Shown in pieces: positions 3,360-11,179 of a stretch of 11,407 bases of DNA. The position numbers and the translations under genes are program-made. Under the pieces are notes generated by a model, which was not told where the DNA came from, did no database searches, and was given only the letters and a program-made list of their open reading frames with translations. How positions within the stretch are numbered: the first letter of the stretch is position 1; each line of letters begins with the position of its first letter. Source of the DNA: Chloroflexota bacterium (lineage in GTDB: Bacteria; Chloroflexota; UBA6077); the NCBI GenBank assembly GCA_021806765.1, contig JAJZQR010000167.1, forward strand, positions 1 to 11,407, given 5' to 3'.

Positions 3360-3976
3360 ATGATCCGAGCAAATCTAACAACCGACACCCGCGACGCAGT
3401 GCAGGCGCTGCGCCGCGATGCTACCTTGAGCCCAGCCGAGCGGGACCGGGTAGAGATGATCCTGCTGTCCGACGAAGGCTGGAGTCCGCCCCATATCGCC
3501 AACCATCTGAAGTGCCATGCCAAGACGGTGCGCCTGGTCCTGAAGCGCTTCCACGAGCAGGGACTGGCGAGCCCGCGCTATCAACGCCCTGGTCCTCCCC
3601 CCGACACCGCTCGGCGGGAACAAGTCACTTCCGCCTTGGAGCAGTTACTGAGCCAGAACCGCACCTGGACGGCTGGACAGTTGGCCGAGGCTCTGGAGGA
3701 CTTCGGCATCCAGCTCAGCACCCGGCAGACCCTCAAGTACCTGGGGCGGATGGAGGCCCACTGGCGGCGCACCGCCCGTACCCTGCGCCACAAGCAGGAC
3801 CCGGTGCGGGTGGACCATGCCCGCACCCAACTCGCCACGCTCAAAAAAAGGCCGAAGACGGCGAACTTGTCCTGACCTACCTGGACGAGTGCGGCTTTGC
3901 TCCCTCCCAGCCCGTGACCTACAACTGGGTTCGACCAGGCGAGCGCAAGCTCATCCCCTATGAGAACCCCAGGGCC
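3360..3976 (+). pseudogene. IS630-family transposase, frameshifted and 3'-truncated
   Basis: The first frame (ATG 3360) has an N-terminal helix-turn-helix region (LSPAERDRVEMILLSDEGWS through KTVRLVLKRFHEQGL), a Pro-rich linker and a second helical domain (WTAGQLAEALEDFGIQLSTR), ending at TGA 3873-3875. In the -1 frame it resumes at the A7 run with EDGELVLTYLDECGFAPS, then NWVRPGERKLIPYENP. That is the start of the IS630/DDE_3 catalytic domain, with the first Asp in YLDECGF. The match stops at about 3976, where the IS21 end begins. The second Asp, the final acidic residue and the right inverted repeat are absent. I see no continuation of the gene beyond the IS21 element. No clear ribosome binding site precedes ATG 3360. 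Confidence 0.82.
3843..3849 (+). other. A7 slippery run at the IS630 frame change
   Basis: Seven consecutive A (ctc AAA AAA Agg) lie exactly where the two halves of the transposase must join by a -1 shift. Programmed frameshifting on A-runs is known in several IS families. A base-count error or ordinary decay would look the same. Confidence 0.5.
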
Positions 3977-3988
3977 GTCGTGTTTTCG
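3972..3988. repeat. Left inverted repeat of the IS21 element
   Basis: It pairs with 7054-7070 at 16 of 17 positions. It directly abuts the end of the IS630 reading frame, so the insertion or a later rearrangement cut that gene here. Confidence 0.75.
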
Positions 3989-4155
3989 TCAATCCGGTGC
4001 GGCCCACTTTGATACTCGGGAATGGCCCACCCTGGTGGGTCAGCCCGTGTAACTCCTCGTTCTCACCTCCTCGGTTTTGGCAGGTCGGCACGGCCGCTTC
4101 GATTCTCCAGGCTGTGCCATCTCCGACGCCTTTCGCTGTTGGGTGGCCACCTCCC
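3989..4155. other. Non-coding left terminal region of the IS21 element
   Basis: It contains GGCCCACTTTGAT at 4001-4013, then GGAATGGCCCACC at 4019-4031, which are copies of the internal repeat seen at the other end. The GC palindrome CCCACC-ct-GGTGGG follows at 4026-4039. The remainder up to the passenger-gene stop shows no gene on either strand. Confidence 0.55.
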
Positions 4156-4536
4156 TTAGTCACTAACGAGATCACCGATGGCCACTGGCTCGTCGCAGTG
4201 AGGACAGCGGCCACCCGGGCCTACCCGCCTACAGAAGAGCTGACAGTCCACGCAGCGTTGCTGGCCCAGATAGCGCGTCCCGCACGACGGGCACTCGTAG
4301 ACGGTCCCTGAGCGGGCTGACTGCAGCGGGGCATGTGGGAGGGGCGCTGGCGAGCCGTGGCGTCGCCGCCAAGCGGCCTGACGGCAGGCGTCCGAGCAGA
4401 AGCGCCTTCGGCCCACCGGAGGGAAGGCGCGTCCGCAGATCGGGCAGATCGTCCGAGCCATCGTTATACCATCGTTACGGGACGGGCAGAAGCCCTCGGA
4501 CAGGCTGTCGGGGGCGTCGCCGCAGCGGTCAGTCAT
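4156..4536 (-). CDS. Zinc-ribbon passenger protein of the IS21 element
   Basis: A small Cys-rich protein. From ATARTICP-like start [13 protein letters not shown] (4461) it has [39 protein letters not shown] and RCPHCDEP: repeated CxxC knuckles consistent with two or three zinc sites. I recall similar short ORFs next to istB in IS21-type elements of high-GC bacteria, with no known function; DNA binding or an accessory role in transposition is a guess. Two starts are possible. ATG 4536 (126 aa) overlaps the istB stop by 8 bp and has AGGA upstream, suggesting translational coupling. ATG 4461 (101 aa) matches the start of the Cys-rich domain but has no good ribosome site. Confidence 0.65.
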
Positions 4537-5338
4537 GGCCATCCATCCTATCGTCCGTCCCCTTGTGCTGGCGGCCCCCTCTGTGCTGCAGGGTTCGCCT
4601 GAAGCGATACGACTCGGTGCCCGTCTCGATGATGTGGGCCCGGTCCGTGATGCGATCCAGGAGGGCCTTGCACAGGCGGGCATTGGGGATCACCTGGGTC
4701 CACTCGCTGAAGGGGAGGTTGGTGGTCAGGATGAGGGCCGCCCTCTCGGCTCGGTCTGCGATCACCTGGAAGAGGAGCTCGGCTCCGGCCTCGGCCAGGG
4801 GCACGTACCCCACCTCGTCGATGGCGATCAGGTCGTAGCGTTCCCAGCGTGAGAGCACCCGGCGAAGGGCGAGCTGCTCCTTGGCCTCCACCAGTTCGTT
4901 AACGAGAGCCGCCGTCGTCGTGAAGCGCACCCTCCGCCTCTGCCGGCAGGCCGCCACGCACAGCCCCGTGAGCAGGTGCGTCTTGCCTGTGCCGGCCTCC
5001 CCAATGAACACCACCGGCTCGGCCCGCTCGATGTAGCCCCCTTCGGCGAGCTCCCTGATCTTCGTCGCCGAGATCACGGGCGCCTGGGAGAAGTCGAACT
5101 CCTCCAGAGTCTTCACCTTCGGCAGATGGGCATCCTTGATCCGCCGAAGGACAGCGCCGGCTTCCCGCTCCTCGATCTCCGCGCCGAGTAGCGCCTCCAG
5201 GTAGCCGAGGTAGCCTTGACGGCCTCGTTCCGCGTCCTGTGCCAGTCGGGCGCACTGTCCCGCGACCGTCGGCAGGTGCAGGGTTCTGCAATGCTGCCTC
5301 ACGGCGCTCTCTTGGAGGTGCGACGATGTCTGGCTCAT
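4529..5338 (-). CDS. istB: IstB-like ATP-binding transposition helper
   Basis: An intact 269-aa AAA+ ATPase. Its features are an N-terminal helical domain (residues 1-75), Walker A GEAGTGKT at 113-120 with Lys119, Walker B LIAIDE at 170-175 with Asp174 and Glu175, a sensor-like [11 protein letters not shown] at 203-213, and [15 protein letters not shown] near the C-terminus. IstB binds ATP and DNA and works with the IstA transposase in target selection and strand transfer. The start ATG 5338 overlaps the istA stop by ATGA, the usual coupling in IS21. The length is normal. The tail after YRFRR is low in similarity and overlaps the zinc-ribbon ORF. Confidence 0.93.
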
Positions 5339-6954
5339 CGTGCCCTCCCTCCAACCGGAGCCGCGGGACGAGCGGCAAGCGACCCCGAGCTATGCTCGGG
5401 GCGCTCGTTCCGACCGGCGAAGCCGGCCGTCGCCTGCAGCAGCCGGTCGTAGTCGGCCACATCCGGCAGCGGCCGCTCGAAGGCGGCTAGCCTGCCCACA
5501 TCCTCCAGCGGGGCGGGAGACGGCCGGCACGTCACTTTGGCACTGAGCAGGTAAGCCACTGCTGAGCTGTCGGCGCACCCGAGGGCCAGCGCCTGCTCCA
5601 CCGCCGCCCGCAGCCTCGCCTGGCCGCACGTGCGCCCCAAGATCAGCAGCTCGATCATCTGCCTGGTCCCACCCCCTCGGCCGTGTCGCTCGACCAGCTT
5701 CTGCCACAGATGGTCGTAGCTACCCGGCCACCTGCCTGCCGCCCTCCACTGGGCCAGCGGCTTGCTACCCGCCAATGCCCCGGGCTTACGCTCCAGGACG
5801 TCCAGGTAGTGCTCAAGATCCAGGATCTCCTGGTGGTGGCCGTAGCACCGCTCGTGGGTGGCGACGCAGCGCCCCTCATGCCACAGCTCCACATGGCTGG
5901 CCGTGATCTTCGCCTCGACCGTCTTACCGGCGTCCATGGGCACCGAGTAAGCGTTGGTGCGAACCTTCACGCAGCCGAAGGCGCTCACCGTGGGGAAGGC
6001 CGTCTCCACGAGATCGAAGTCCTCCTCTACCAGCGGCAGGAGGTGAGCCTCCTCGATCAACATCGCTCGTCCCACTGTCTCCTGCCGACCAGCGATCACC
6101 CGCGCCTCATCCTCACGGCAGGCCCGAAGGAGCATCTCGTTCAGCTCAGCGAGGTCGGCTGCCTTTGGTACCGGCACCCAGTGATTACGCCTGAAGGTGC
6201 CAACCTCGTTCTCCACCCCTCCCTTCTCGTGCCCCTCCCCAGGGGTGCAGAAGGCTGACTCGAAGCGCTAGTGGGAGCGGAAGGCCACGAAGCGGGCCGT
6301 CTCCTCCCGCCGAAAGCCCCGCAGGGTGCGCTTGACCGCAGCGGGCAGGTTGTCATATCGAAGGCGGCGGAAAACCCCGAAGTAGTGGAAGGCAAGCTGG
6401 TGGGCCTCAAGGAAGGCTTGCTGGGTACCTCGTTGGTACGCTCGGTGGAAGACAGCCCCGCTTGCCATGCTGCGCAGGACGAACACGGCCAGCTTCACCC
6501 GCTCTTGCCCGAGCTCCGACTCCGCCTCGTACCAGTCGACCTGCGACTCCTCTCCCCAGGCATAGGCCTGGGGCACGAACGTCTCACGAGATGCCAGCCC
6601 TATCGCGGCCCTGCGCTCCCGCACATATCGGCGCACGGTGGACTCGGCCACAGGGAAGTCCGGATACTCCTTCCCGATGCGCACCTAGATCCGGTGGGCC
6701 GTGTGACGCTGCTTCCGCGGCGCCTTCTGGTCCCCCTCCAGGATCCCGTCGATGAAGTCGGCCACCGGCCCCAGCCGCGGACGCGCTCGCCTTGCCGCTG
6801 GCCTCTCCGCCGGCACTGCGCTCCCCAGTGCCGCCCGCACCATCCGTCGATGCACACCCAGCTTGTGGGCTACCCCCTGGATCGTGCCCACCCCGAACTC
6901 GTACTCCCGTCTGATCTCCTCGAACAGCTCCACGCTCGCTCTTCTCCTTCGCAT
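5335..6954 (-). pseudogene. istA: IS21 transposase with two in-frame TAG stops
   Basis: One continuous frame of 540 codons, start ATG 6954 with a GAGGGGGG ribosome site. It has an N-terminal helix-turn-helix ([20 protein letters not shown], residues about 12-40), then the integrase-type core with Asp140 in QVDWYEAE, Asp201 in RYDNLP and Glu248 in the HEKGGVENE block. A C-terminal region ends at the ATGA overlap with istB. Codon 90 is TAG where the family has Trp ([15 protein letters not shown]), and codon 229 is TAG where it has Tyr (RSH-stop-RFESAF). Both need a single base change from the expected codon. All catalytic residues remain. It is inactive unless the ambers are suppressed; TAG ends other genes here, so suppression is not expected. 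Confidence 0.9.
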
Positions 6955-7002
6955 CGGCCCCCCTCGCCCGCCTTCCTGACACGCTCAGGGTAGCCATATT
7001 CG

Positions 7003-7045
7003 TGATCAAACGTGGGCCATTCATCATGATCAAAGTGGGCCATTC
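7003..7045. repeat. Two internal terminal repeats at the IS21 right end
   Basis: TGATCAAACGTGGGCCATTC at 7003-7022 and TGATCAAAGTGGGCCATTC at 7027-7045 are 24 bp apart. Inverted relatives lie at 4001-4031. Paired sites at each end are the expected IstA binding sites. Confidence 0.7.
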
Positions 7046-7053
7046 CAGGGTAT

Positions 7054-7070
7054 CGAAAACACAACGGCCC
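7054..7070. repeat. Right inverted repeat of the IS21 element
   Basis: It is complementary to 3972-3988 with one mismatch and marks the outer end of the element beyond istA. Confidence 0.75.
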
Positions 7071-7190
7071 GAGAAGCCCCGACTGGGCCGAAAGACGGCG
7101 GGAGACGCGAGGCAAGAGATCGAGGGAGTCTGGCGTACTGGCACCGCCGACAATTCCTCGGGGCCAGCCAGTGGAACCGGTGGGTGCCGA
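7071..7190. other. 120 bp with no recognised feature
   Basis: It lies between the IS21 right end and the first TGACCAAGGG repeat. It does not continue the IS630 frame that was interrupted at 3976, so the DNA on the two sides of the IS21 element does not match up. I see no gene or hairpin worth calling. Confidence 0.4.
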
Positions 7191-7293
7191 TGACCAAGGG
7201 TCTGCATCGGACTGACCAAGGGACTCGAACTTGGCTGACCAAGGGACTCGAAACCGACTGACCAGGGGACTGTTTCGGAGCGACCAAGGGACT
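7191..7293 (+). repeat. Left array: five direct copies of TGACCAAGGGACT, 22-23 bp period
   Basis: Copies start at 7191, 7213, 7236, 7259 and 7281, so the steps are 22, 23, 23 and 22 bp. Each is 11-13 of 13 identical to TGACCAAGGGACT. The 9-10 bp between copies (for example CGAACTTGGC, CGAAACCGAC) are looser but related, so the real unit may be 22-23 bp. Two helical turns per unit puts every copy on one face of the DNA, as for tandem protein sites: iterons, or transposase sites at an IS21-type end. The spacers are far too short for CRISPR. Confidence 0.8.
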
Positions 7294-7294
7294 G

Positions 7295-7386
7295 TGACCT
7301 AGAAACTGCTGGGGAGAAACGGGCGGTTCTGACCTAGAAACTGAGCGATTCCCCGCATTTCCCTTGGTCACCTGCCCCAGAAACTC
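7295..7386 (+). repeat. Variant copies, TGACCTAGAAACTG type
   Basis: TGACCTAGAAACTG occurs identically at 7295-7308 and 7330-7343. A weaker relative, TGCCCCAGAAACTC, is at 7373-7386. They align with TGACCAAGGGACTG at 11 of 14 positions and so look like a second class of the same site. An inverted CCCTTGGTCA lies between them at 7361-7370. The last variant runs into the anticodon loop of the tRNA fragment. Confidence 0.6.
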
Positions 7387-7427
7387 ATAAGCCCTTGGTC
7401 GTCAGTTCAAATCTGACCCCCGCCACC
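7384..7427 (+). tRNA. 3' half of tRNA-Met(CAT), truncated
   Basis: The sequence parses as an anticodon loop CTCATAA (7384-7390, anticodon CAT at 7386-7388), anticodon 3' stem GCCCT, variable loop TGGTC, T stem GTCAG, T loop TTCAAAT, T stem CTGAC, acceptor strand CCCCGCC (7418-7424), discriminator A and CC. The T stem is perfect. The five bases before the loop (agaaa) cannot pair with GCCCT, and no D arm or GGCGGGG acceptor strand lies upstream, so the gene is cut exactly at the anticodon loop. Halves of this shape are what site-specific integration into a tRNA gene leaves behind. It cannot make a functional tRNA. Confidence 0.75.
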
Positions 7428-7654
7428 TTTGCTTCCCTCCGCATATCCAGGGCTCACTCGTTTTAGCTAGCTTTTGTCTTCTTCTCATGGCTCCACCCGT
7501 CCTCACTACGCTGACCAAGGAACCAGAACTTCCCTGGTCACCAATCGCCAATCTGATCGGCCGTCGGCAGTCTTGTCTAGCCTCGCTCGTGTCTTGTTGC
7601 CGATTATCACTTTAGGCATCCTTATCACTCCGACCAGACACTCTACAAAGTGGT
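7428..7654. other. Gene-free stretch between the repeat arrays
   Basis: This is somewhat more AT-rich than its surroundings (for example around 7458-7486 and 7600-7630). Apart from the inverted repeat at 7512-7540 and a weak copy (CGACCAGACACTC, 7631-7643), I see no gene, promoter or terminator that I could defend. Confidence 0.45.
7512..7540. repeat. Inverted pair of the array motif
   Basis: TGACCAAGGAA (7512-7522) and TTCCCTGGTCA (7530-7540) form an 11-bp stem with one mismatch and a 7-bp loop. It is the same core as the direct repeats, here arranged as a palindrome. Confidence 0.65.
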
Positions 7655-7785
7655 TGACCAAGGGACTTCCGGCCGGCTGACCTGGGGATTCCTGCCCAGT
7701 GGTTTTCAGCGACCAAGGGACTTTTCCTGGCTCCGTTTTCGTGAACAAGGGACTTTCCGTCGACCCGATTTGTGACCAAGGGACT
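7655..7785 (+). repeat. Right array: five direct copies of TGACCAAGGGACT, mostly 31-32 bp apart
   Basis: Copies start at 7655, 7678, 7710, 7742 and 7773 (steps 23, 32, 32, 31). Two are perfect, and the others differ at 1-3 positions (TGACCTGGGGATT, CGACCAAGGGACT, TGAACAAGGGACT). They have the same orientation as the left array. The spacing is about three helical turns, against two in the left array. The array ends 35 bp before the stop of the HNH gene. Confidence 0.75.
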
Positions 7786-7820
7786 CCCTGGCACCATGGA
7801 GGTGTCCATACCTACCGCAA

Positions 7821-8550
7821 TCACCCCACCTTGGGAAGATGCTTGTTCATGCGAAGCCGCGCGACTCCACGCATCGAGAAGATGAAGCTCAGGCTTTCGT
7901 AGTCGAAGGGGGCATCATCCCGGTGCACTGCGGCATGATGGTTGGGACAGACCAATGCCATGTTGTCCAGTTCGTCATCGCCTCCGTGAAAGAGCCACTC
8001 ATTGTGGTGGCCGTGACATAGCCTGAACCGGAACTCGTCACAGGGGTCGAAAAGGCAGAACTGGCAGCGTCCGTCATGCAAGTCCTGCGAGCACTCAATG
8101 CTTCGACGCGCTCTGGTCGGACCCGTAGACTCGTAGGGGACATCAGCCTCGTTGCGTAGTCCTGTGTATCCTCACGCAGTACGGTGGCCCGAGCAACCTC
8201 TCCGTGAACCAGACGCGCCTCGAATTCATCCTCAGGGTACACACCGACACGCGACAGCACCGACAGGTCCCATGCGAGGCTAACAAGAAGGAGGTGGTCG
8301 TCGGAGGAGATGCTCCTCATGGCAGCGTGGGCCTGAAATGCCTGTGCCAGGCGAGGGCCTCGGGCTGAGACGCTCAGATGACGAATGAGGGGCTCAGCGT
8401 TTGGGCCGCGCCAGATGTCGAAGTACCGGCGTCCCCCCAGGCACGATGGGCGCCGTACCGATAGTTGGGCGGATTCCGCGTGACGGCACGGATGACCAGT
8501 TCGGCACCCAGGACGTACAGCCCATCCCGTTTCCGGCAAGTGAAAGCCCA
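7821..8550 (-). pseudogene. HNH endonuclease, broken by frameshifts
   Basis: Three frames join to one protein. From about 8550, FTCRKRDGLYVLGAELVIR, then TRNPPNYRYGAHRAWGD. After a run of six G (8433-8438), RRYFDIWRGPNAEPLIRHLS through a helical middle to VLREDT. Then, from about 8165, GLRNEADVPYEST, CSQDLHDGRCQFC, RLCHGHHNEWLF, DELDNMALVCPNHHAAVHRD and a tail RLRMNKHLPKVG to TGA at 7823-7821. The CxxC, GHH and CPNHHxxVH pattern is an HNH nuclease fold with a zinc site. Such proteins occur in restriction, phage and defence settings, and the substrate cannot be told here. The 5' end is unclear because TAG 8553-8551 blocks the first frame and no start codon fits. Confidence 0.78.
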
Positions 8551-8644
8551 CTAGCTATCTCCAAGGACCGCCGCTGCCATGACCGGACTGCTTTAGTTGA
8601 GGTGGGAGCCCAACCCGAAGGCACGAACCCGTACGTAGTTGTCG

Positions 8645-9597
8645 CAGGGTCTTTTAGTTGTGGCACACAAGTAGCAGGTAAGTACGTCAGGTATCTCAGG
8701 GAGTGGGAGGTGGAGATGGAAGACGTGCTGACGCTGGAGCAGGTGGAGAAGGCAGCGCCACCGCGGACGTTGGCGGAGGTACTGGCAGAAGTGCCGGACC
8801 CGAGAGATCCTCATGGGAAACGGTACCGGATAGGGACGATCTTGGCCTTTACGGTGTGTGCGATGCTGTGCGGAGCCAGGAGCCTGTATGCCATTGCCCA
8901 ATGGGGACGGGATCACGATCCGGAGATGGCGCAGGCGCTCGGGTTCAGGAGCAGCACCCTCTGCGTAGCAACGCTACACCTGCTGTTCAAGCGGCTGGAT
9001 CGGGACAAACTGGAGGCTGTCCTGGGGCAATACTTCCAGCAGCAGGGGTTGGCTGCTGGGGAAGCTGTGGCCATCGACGGGAAGAGTCTGAGGGGAATCC
9101 ATGGGGAGCAGTTGCCAGGGGTGTCTCTGGTGGCAGCCTAAGCCGGCAGGGTTCTGGCGCAAAAGGGGGGTCAGGGACAAGGAAGCTGAACTGGCGGTCG
9201 CGCCAGAAGTGCTCAAGTGCTTGGATTTGAAAGGGCTGGTGGTGACGGGCGATGCCCTGTATGCCCAAAAGGAGCTGTACAAACAGATTGTGGCGGCTGG
9301 TGGGGAGTATCTATTCGTGGTGAAGGATAACCAACCCACACTGCGAGAGGATATCGCCCCACCCTGTTTAACGATCCGCCGGTCAAGCCAGCACAAGTGG
9401 TGCAGCAAAGCCACCACGGGGACCGGAGAGAAGTGCGGAAGCTGGAGGCTTCCACAGCCCTGGACGAATACAGCGACTGGCCGCACCTAGCCCAGGTGTG
9501 TCGCATCCAGCGGGAGGTGACGCGCAAGGGGCAAACGAAGCCAGAGGTGGCCTACGCGGTCAACCAGCCTGTGGCCCCATGAGGCAGACCCTAGGCG
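8645..9597 (+). mobile_element. ISAs1-family element, 3'-truncated
   Basis: The transposase begins at 8716. The left end may be at CAGGGTCTTTTAGTTG (8645-8660), a guess from position and from the CAGGG start common in this family. The right end is missing because the IS4 element starts at 9598 within the coding region. Confidence 0.6.
8716..9597 (+). pseudogene. ISAs1-family transposase, decayed
   Basis: Start ATG 8716 with GGGAGGTGGAG upstream. The N-terminus has LAEVPDPRDPHGKRYRIGTILAF, the family's opening, and the first catalytic Asp at residue 121 (VAIDGKSLRG). The frame meets TAA 9139-9141 where Tyr is expected (SLVAA-stop-AGRVLAQKG) and then shifts at six G (9165-9170) into VRDKEAELAVAPEVLKCLDL, VVTGDALYAQKEL (second Asp) and YLFVVKDNQPTL. 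It shifts again at about 9356-9364 to LFNDPPVKPAQVVQQSHHGDRR, VAYAVNQP, and once more at about 9578 to EADPRR. There the IS4 element interrupts it, so the C-terminal catalytic Glu is absent. It is inactive. Confidence 0.85.
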
Positions 9598-9713: not shown

Positions 9714-11179
9714 TTGGGATTCATGATACGACAGATCGATCCGAACGCCAAACTCGCCGACGAGGTCTCGGTGGACGCCCTGGAGGCCGCAGTACCGCGC
9801 GCGACCGTGGAAGCTGTGGTCGCGGATCCGGGGGTGGCCGAGCAGCGCAGGCGTAAGCTCCCAGCGGAACTGACCGTGCTGCTGACCGTCGCCATGAACC
9901 TCTTTACTCACGATGCGCTGGAGGAGGTGCTGCGCAAGTTGCTCAGAGGGCTGCGCTTCATCTGGCCCCAACCGGACATCACCACTGCTAACAAGGGTGC
10001 CATCTCCATGGCCCGCTATCGCCTGGGTGCCGCTCCCTTGGCAGAGTTGTTCCATCGAGTCTGCAAGCCTATGGCCACCGATGAGACCCAGGGTGCCTTC
10101 CTCTTCGGCCTGAGGGTCATGGCCTTCGACGGCACCAACGAGGAGCTGCCCGACACTGCCGAGAACGCCCGCATCTTCGGCCGGCCTGGCGGCTACCGTG
10201 GAGATGGTGCCTTCCCCCAGGCCAAGGGGGTCTACCTGTTGGAGTGTGGCACCCACGCCATCGTCGATGCAGGCTTCTGGCCAGCCGCACCGGCGAGGAT
10301 AGCTGCGCTCGTCGGCTGCTGCGCTCCGTGACCGAGGGGATGCTGCTGATGTGGGACACCGGGCTGCACAGCTTCGATCTGGCCCAGGCCGTCCGGGCCA
10401 GGTCCGCTCATTTCCTGGGTCGAGTGCCCGACAACGTCAAGTTCAAGCCTCTGTGGCGTCAGTCCGATGGCTCCTATCTGGCCTACATCTACCCCTCGGA
10501 ATACCAGCGTCGCAAGAGGGGCGAGCATCTCCTGGTTCGGGTGATCGACTACACCCTGACCGATCCCGCGAGGCCGGGCTATGGACAAACCCACCGTCTG
10601 ATGACCTCCCTGCTGGATCCCGACCAGTGCCCAGCCACAGAGTTGGCCTGCGCCTACCACGAGCGATGGGAGATCGAACTCACCGTGGATGAGGTGGATA
10701 CCCACCAGAAGCTCGCCCAGCACCCCCTGCGCAGTAAGAAGCCCGTGGGGGTTATCCAGGAGCTGTACGCCCTTCTGATCGCCCACTACGTCGTCCGTCA
10801 CACCATGCACGAGGCGGCCCTCCAGGCGGGTCTCGACCCGGATCGCCTGAGCTTCACCAAGGCGCTGAGTCTCCTCTGCGATGCTATCCCAGAGTTCCAG
10901 ATGGTGGTTCCCGAACAGCATGCGGCCCTGTACCGGCGGCTCCTTGAGGACATCGCCCGCCAGCGACTACCAGAGCGCGAGGGCCGCACCAACCCACGGG
11001 TGGTCAAGCGTAAGATGTCCAACTTCCGCCTGAAACGGGCCGAGCATCAACACTGGCCGCAGCCGTCCGTCCCCTTCCGGGAGGCGGTTGCGGTCTCCCG
11101 TCGCGCCACGGTGCCGCTACTGGCGATGAAGCCGCAGCCGTCCATTGCCTACCGGGAGGCCGCCACGGTCCTTAAGTGA
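9714..11179 (+). pseudogene. IS4-family transposase, one frameshift
   Basis: The first frame starts at TTG 9714 (AAGGA 8 nt upstream) or ATG 9723. It has the N-terminal IS4 domain (KLPAELTVLLTVAMNLFTHDALEEV, RLGAAPLAELFHRVC) and the first catalytic Asp139 in VMAFDGTNEE, and runs past GVYLLECGTHAIVDAGFWP. At about 10280-10290 the match moves to a second frame: ARRLLRSVTEGMLLMWDTGLHSF (second Asp), RVIDYTLTDPARPGYG, the YHERWEIELTVDE block with the catalytic Glu, then LRSKKPVGVIQELYALL and PRVVKRKMSNF, ending TAA... at 11179. Total about 488 codons, normal for this group. All three catalytic residues remain, so a one-base correction would restore the protein. The stop lies inside the right inverted repeat. 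Confidence 0.9.
11057..11170 (+). repeat. Duplicated segment in the IS4 transposase tail
   Basis: CCGCAGCCGTCC at 11057-11068 recurs at 11132-11143, 75 bp (25 codons) later, each followed by a related CCGGGAGGC-containing stretch. The protein therefore ends with PQPSVPFREAVAV and then PQPSIAYREAATV. This looks like a diverged in-frame duplication outside the catalytic domain. Confidence 0.6.

Follow-up and report, generated by a model that had tools for sequence, protein, structure and literature searches.

A candidate tyrosine-recombinase attachment site at a tRNA-Met(CAT) gene in a Chloroflexota bacterium, with flanking arrays that resemble its core

A stretch of DNA of 11,407 nucleotides from a Chloroflexota bacterium, referred to hereafter as the window, harbors within about 600 bp two arrays of a short repeat arranged around half of a tRNA gene. 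The question raised by this locus is what the arrays are. An earlier note, made from the sequence alone, had regarded them as tandem protein-binding sites and had named three possibilities (plasmid iterons, terminal sites of an IS21-type element, or integrase arm sites); the last of these is the one that the evidence reported below supports.

Repeat arrays and tRNA half in the window

The motif TGACCAAGGGACT was searched for on both strands, allowing up to 3 mismatches. The scan disclosed 19 matches in the window, versus a mean of 3.33 and a maximum of 8 in 200 shuffled sequences; 16 of the 19 matches fall between positions 7191 and 7785, and the remaining three are located at 4150, 10329 and 10854. 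The excess of the motif is therefore confirmed by a mismatch-tolerant scan, and the earlier note had placed both direct arrays, the variant sites and the inverted pair correctly.

The repeats are located on both sides of an inverted core, and the two sides are referred to here as the P arm (7191-7370) and the P' arm (7512-7785). The P arm begins with five direct copies on the plus strand (7191-7293), starting at 7191, 7213, 7236, 7259 and 7281, that is, with steps of 22, 23, 23 and 22 bp. These are followed, on the same strand, by two sites of the variant TGACCTAGAAACTG, which start at 7295 and 7330 and are thus 35 bp apart (7295-7343), a third and weaker copy of the variant being found at 7373. 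The scan also revealed two minus-strand copies of the motif that were absent from the earlier list: the one at 7358-7370 represents an inverted P-arm site (as judged from the motif scan and from the comparison of offsets), and the one at 7389-7401 falls within the tRNA half. When the P-arm stretch of the window was shuffled 500 times, the mean number of sites was 0.93 and the maximum, reached once, was 7, versus the 8 sites found.

On the other side of the core, a second inverted pair (7512-7524 and 7528-7540) has a core-like layout of 29 bp (7512-7540), and a similar pair exists in the P' region of the related locus L059. It is followed by the five direct copies of the P'-arm array, on the plus strand (7655-7785), which start at 7655, 7678, 7710, 7742 and 7773 with steps of 23, 32, 32 and 31 bp. 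A stretch of 19 bases within this array (7710-7728) is identical in L059, where it is located between the tRNA-Met gene and the integrase gene.

No complete tRNA was called by ARAGORN in the window. The tRNA half noticed in the earlier note is the 3' half of a tRNA-Met(CAT) gene, located on the plus strand at 7384-7427; it opens with CTCATAA at 7384, which corresponds to the anticodon loop, and closes at 7427. The assignment comes from the sequence of relatives, from ARAGORN and from blastn: in relatives that hold the same sequence plus its 5' half, ARAGORN calls a tRNA-Met(cat). The core reads TGCCCCAGAAA-CTCATAA-GCCCTTGGTCG and has an inverted 11-7-11 structure (7373-7401), composed of a half-site at 7373-7383, the loop at 7384-7390 and a half-site at 7391-7401; the two core halves match the motif at 9/13 and 10/13 positions. 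The inverted half-sites flank the anticodon loop, as is expected of an attachment site of a tyrosine recombinase targeting a tRNA gene. The Rfam search of the region 6900-8000 returned a single match, far below the gathering score.

As for the rest of the window, an IS630-like frame (3360-3990) is directly followed by an IS21 element (about 4000-7060), with IstB at 4529-5338, pieces of IstA at 5335-6684 and TGTTTTCG ends; its flanks, GGGCCGTCG and CAACGGCCC, are, by eye, inverted repeats of each other. A frame judged HNH-like by eye, without any Pfam or NCBIfam match, is located to the right of the P' array (7821-8081, minus strand). Further to the right, transposase pieces are found at 8401-9582 and 9714-11179, with a DDE_Tnp_1-associated domain and an IS4-type transposase spread over two frames (PF13006 and PF01609). 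At the opposite end, the minus strand encodes a protein without Pfam match (187-1056) that has 91 relatives, the close ones being named Dehalococcoidales bacterium and Chloroflexi bacterium.

Related loci and their integrases

The genome_contigs collection was scanned for pairs of exact motif copies 7-22 bp apart, and 13 stretches were obtained. Twelve of them were short tandem repeats and were dropped; the thirteenth, L008, from a Chloroflexi MAG, carries the motif in unique sequence, and its copies are followed by CTCATAAACCCTCGGTC, which represents, in degenerate form, the beginning of the tRNA half of the window. The first 30 bases of this half, allowing up to 3 mismatches, were matched in 55 of 301 Chloroflexota genomes. 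Many of these matches are intact tRNA-Met(CAT) genes, and ten, in nine of the loci listed, represent displaced 3' halves that lack the 5' half; one of them, L076, closely repeats the left flank of the window. In the 29 genomes searched from a single class, a degenerate two-copy pattern was found four times (L076, L075, L079 and L008), in each case next to the 3' half, degenerate or not, of a tRNA-Met gene. The exact pattern was found in 1 of 400 Chloroflexota genomes, i.e., that of L008. In viral sequences, scans with paired motifs, with the exact tRNA half or with the motif combined with the tRNA gave nothing, and neither did blastn against plasmids and phages. Nine viral contigs were dropped since their copies differ in type from this motif: L039 contains an 11-bp tandem repeat, and the others look like repeats with 33-bp steps. 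In L036, L042 and similar viral contigs, GACCAAGGG repeats with steps of about 33 bp are unlike att sites.

The window was then compared by blastn with the loci fetched to that point. The match with L076 extends over 7093-7430 (88.5% over 340 columns) and includes the outer left flank of the P arm (7093-7190, plus strand), which is common to the two loci. Shorter matches were obtained with L079 (7259-7428, 71%), L074 (7283-7420, 72%) and L075 (7359-7426, 88%). In all four relatives, the homology ends at 7420-7430, at the 3' end of the tRNA or a few bases from it, and no blastn match exists between L076 and the window to the right of the tRNA end.

Site positions are given here as offsets from base 1 of the anticodon loop. 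The window and L076 have eight sites at identical offsets: -193, -171, -148, -125, -103, -89, -54 and -26, the last one being inverted. L079 has sites at -117, -103, -89, -54 and -26, with two weaker inverted ones further out, and L075 at -119, -102, -88, -53 and -26. The two variant sites (-89 and -54 in the window) are therefore found again at the same offsets in L076 and L079, and at -88 and -53 in L075. In L074, the sites at -104 and -90 are kept and an inverted one is present at -119; in L008, the copies at -48 and -27 are inverted and those at -162 and -148 are direct. By the same scoring, the 260 bp that precede the tRNA contain 0-2 sites in 11 intact tRNA-Met loci, and no more than one site was found for any of six other displaced halves, among which L087 has just 143 bp of upstream sequence. 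The sites at -103, -89, -54 and -26 are thus common to the window, L076 and L079, and the corresponding ones of L075 deviate from these offsets by no more than 1 bp. The stop of homology at the tRNA 3' end, together with these fixed distances from the loop, points to the attachment site of a tyrosine integrase. In L074, a stretch of 8.2 kb (5911-14170) separates an intact tRNA-Met from a decayed displaced half and contains frames that by eye are HsdR-like and DprA-like, with no integrase match.

Neither an integrase nor a remnant of one was found in the 11.4-kb window. In L076, three motif-like copies to the right of the core are followed by a frameshifted tyrosine-integrase gene, whose C-terminal frame matches PF00589 with E = 3.3e-17. 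The only other match to this integrase with E <= 1e-20 in 301 genomes is that of L096, which is intact, adjoins a tRNA-Lys and is 51-52% identical to the L076 one; no match to the L096 integrase was obtained in viral contigs, plasmids or phages. In L059, an intact tRNA-Met is followed by an inverted pair, two direct copies and a frame of 372 amino acids encoding an integrase, the first residues of which overlap the copies if the first start of the frame is used; the tRNA was found by ARAGORN in L104, which is the same locus. A frame beyond the integrase of L059 matches the IscB model with E = 1.6e-8, below the cut-off. A gene of the Replic_Relax type adjoins the P arm in L079, and a related gene is located next to the L096 integrase. 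No replication gene was found in the ten frames of the window that were scanned. Despite the Replic_Relax gene of L079, an origin of replication or a cluster of regulator-binding sites does not seem to be needed to explain the arrays.

The integrase of L059 has matches in 19 of 251 Chloroflexota genomes at E <= 1e-45. In 12 of the 29 loci of this family, the integrase is immediately preceded by an intact tRNA, which is a tRNA-Arg in four cases, a tRNA-Gly in three, a tRNA-Leu in three, a tRNA-Lys in one and a tRNA-Met in one. In a thirteenth locus, L108, the tRNA-Gly is cut by the start of the contig, and the other 16 have no tRNA there. A second search, performed with a 17-member profile on 138 genomes of the class of G031, disclosed 30 loci, in 20 of which the 3' end of a tRNA faces the integrase within 600 bp. 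In genome G049, contig C1 contains three equal-scoring integrase copies (at 262078, 284436 and 831848), each with one TAA.

Ten integrases of relatives were scanned for protein domains. All of them have core-binding-type and catalytic domains, plus other matches at chance level, and an arm-binding domain was seen in none of the ten at E <= 1, a count to be read with the facts that Pfam can miss such domains and that the N-terminal ends of the L059 and L096 integrases are uncertain. The AlphaFold model of the L122 integrase (mean pLDDT 82, pTM 0.63) opens with the four helices of a core-binding domain. Among solved structures, XerD gave the highest-ranking profile match and XerA the next, with IntI4 (2a3v) also matched, and the Brujita integrase (5vfz) is among the fold matches of L122. 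With NCBIfam, four integrases are nearest to XerC, XerD or XerA models, below every cut-off.

On the whole, the 600 bp very probably represent the attachment site of a tyrosine recombinase at a tRNA-Met(CAT) gene, the arrays being sites of its integrase. Since the left arm is common to L076 and the right side is different, the site would most likely be the junction of two elements integrated in tandem. The presence of P arm, core and P' arm all together is also what is expected of the attP of a circular excised element or of a plasmid, rather than of a chromosomal tandem junction. We consider this second possibility unlikely: the P arm is shared with L076 at 88.5% and then the match is lost, as expected for stacked elements, and the P' arm is not flanked by an integrase.

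Copies of the targeted tRNA in the flanking DNA

In these loci, inspection of the DNA between tRNA and integrase disclosed copies of the anticodon-arm half-site of that same tRNA; as an example, copies of the ACTAGC type are found by tRNA-Leu, and an exact copy of 15 bases by the tRNA-Gly of L110 and L111. This correspondence was quantified by scoring (out of 13) the best match to the half-sites of the own tRNA within the 300 bp that follow it, with a probe accepting either half-site at each position; the probe was chosen on a discovery set and used unchanged on a held-out one. The discovery set was composed of 12 loci (nine of the 12 L059-family loci plus L089, L092 and L096), L111, L124 and L131 having been left out as near-duplicates. 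The held-out set was composed of 18 loci, L152 and L154 having been dropped as repeats of discovery loci; these two and the held-out set stem from the same class.

In the discovery set, the mean score was 11.67/13 with the own probe versus 9.93 with those of tRNAs of other kinds (permutation p = 5e-5), and shuffled probes gave 10.0 (sd 0.19), with 0 of 200 as high as the own one. The held-out loci gave 11.50 versus 9.95 (permutation p = 5e-5) and, with shuffled probes, 9.57 (sd 0.16; 0 of 200 as high); both permutation p-values treat the loci as independent. The 52 tRNAs without a recombinase match within 700 bp scored 10.02 versus 9.86 (p = 0.11); 33 of these 52 controls are tRNA-Met, and they include L092, whose integrase fragment is too weak to be seen. 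A score of at least 11 was reached by 25 of the 30 loci versus 11 of the 52 controls (Fisher p = 4e-8, with L092 in both groups).

Some loci do not fit. In L096, the probe of its own tRNA-Lys scores 10 and the Met probes score 11; among the held-out loci, L151, L170, L173 and L180 score only 10, and in L171, which scores 12, 7 of 14 foreign probes equal the own one. When single half-sites were used, the result was clear for several Met regions, Leu and the Gly loci L110 and L111, and weak for Arg, Lys, L104 and L105; the probe accepting either half-site was adopted in view of this outcome. A displaced 3' half was found at the far end in 3 of the 12 elements searched; the identity starts at the first base of the loop in two Arg elements and one base earlier in a Lys element. 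The latter carries TGACACCCTGAYT in both arms, with one copy at -89 as in the window, and the two Arg elements have one and zero P-arm sites at threshold. Taken together, these comparisons suggest that relatives in the Chloroflexota targeting Met, Gly, Lys, Arg, Leu, Ile and Pro tRNAs tend to hold, between tRNA and integrase, a copy of the core half-site of the tRNA that they target.

The location of the P' copies might have another meaning, since in L104 and in the eleven other loci with an upstream tRNA they lie between the tRNA and the start of the integrase gene, or within the first part of this gene. The arrays might then be operators, or sites of an accessory factor such as an excisionase or a repressor, placed at the integrase promoter; moreover, in the case of ICEMlSym R7A, a passage of PMC11963761 says that the attP-bound integrase blocks further transcription of intS. 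However, the copies match the half-site of their own tRNA, a sequence that the integrase must read and that a separate regulator has no known reason to follow, and an array is also present in the P arm, which makes a regulatory nature of the arrays quite improbable.

Even more improbable is that the arrays are functionless debris left by repeated insertions of tRNA fragments at an integration hotspot, although the tRNA-Met 3' half is present more than once in some genomes and the window abounds in transposase genes, broken ones included. A displaced tRNA half would place the variable-side half-site in the minus sense, but in the 25 loci scoring at least 11 the best copy is in the plus sense only in 20 cases and in the minus sense only in 2, with 3 ties; besides, the copies are only about 13 bp long and regularly spaced, and their distances are kept at 71-88% identity.

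Finally, almost no credence can be given to the proposal of the earlier note that the direct copies are the transposase-binding end repeats of a vanished or non-autonomous IS21-like element: the IS21 of the window (IstB PF01695 and a Mu-type transposase C domain) does have end repeats about 23 bp apart, and L008 does show forward and then inverted copies, but the end motif of that IS21, as read from its sequence, is different, the two arrays point the same way (as the earlier note itself had remarked) less than 400 bp apart, with too little room for istA and istB, the clusters lie at tRNA-Met halves in 4 of 4 cases in the 29-genome class, the sites of the relatives adjoin tyrosine integrases, and no copies inverted around istA/istB were found in the pattern scans of genome_contigs and of the 400 and 29 genomes.

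A possible mechanism and its relation to known systems

If the locus is the attachment site of a tyrosine recombinase, the two inverted 11-bp half-sites in the anticodon arm would be the binding sites of the enzyme, with strand exchange across the 7-bp anticodon loop. The element would supply a replacement 3' half, so that the tRNA gene would survive the integration. The arrays of the P and P' arms are predicted to be further binding sites of the integrase. Since no arm-binding domain was seen and the arm motif is similar to the core half-sites, one and the same clamp, formed by the core-binding and catalytic domains, probably reads both core and arms. The spaced extra copies might load and order the integrase on the side of the element, favoring integration, and the P' copies might in addition regulate the expression of the integrase gene, which is their neighbor in the relatives.

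Several known systems share part of this design. The attI site of integrons carries extra IntI-binding direct repeats beside the crossover, and the window is similar to it in that a simple recombinase would work with added core-like sites next to the crossover; attI, however, has no tRNA gene as its site, and its additional sites are not known to change along with the host target. The core overlap of lambda is 7 bp, and the window resembles lambda in having a core of inverted half-sites between P and P' arms with repeated sites. According to a passage of PMC4880445, a separate N-terminal domain of lambda Int binds arm sites of a different sequence family. Unlike lambda, the arms described here resemble the core (with the exception of L096, L151, L170, L173 and L180), and neither the integrases of the relatives (10/10) nor the L122 model show a visible arm-binding domain. 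The arm-less system of Brujita is similar in that the integrases of the relatives are tyrosine recombinases without an arm-binding domain, and is different in that the window has arrays on both sides of the core. A passage of PMC7194413 states that the Brujita system has neither an arm-binding domain nor arm-type sites. More generally, integrases without an arm-binding domain are termed "simple recombinases" in the relevant passages of PMC8138268, where they are a minority among phages and conjugative elements and where it is also noted that Pfam misses some arm-binding domains.

As for islands in tRNA genes, the passages on Islander in PMC4383910 describe a displaced tRNA fragment that marks the end of the island, a crossover centered on the anticodon, and tandem arrays. 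The site of the window has a displaced fragment of this kind and a predicted anticodon-centered crossover, and those passages are silent on arm arrays that copy the core half-site. No description of arm sites copying the core half-site was found in the titles and the starts of abstracts of the papers listed by searches of the open-licence literature. Arms copied from the targeted tRNA look like a departure from the textbook integration systems. On the basis of what the sequences tell, we are inclined to think that a group of islands of the Chloroflexota uses Xer-like integrases without an arm-binding domain and that their arm sites would be copies of the core half-site of the target tRNA, both being read by the same protein surface.

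If this is true, the retargeting of an element to a new tRNA would be equivalent to the rewriting of its whole attachment region, and the arms would record the tRNA for which the element was built. From a practical viewpoint, the copy of the half-site located between tRNA and integrase could help to name the target tRNA from just one end of an element, a rule meant for fragmentary metagenomes. A system devoid of the arm-binding domain, whose arms look like the core and track the target tRNA, would represent an intermediate design, suggesting how arms could predate the arm-binding domain and how elements change their target.
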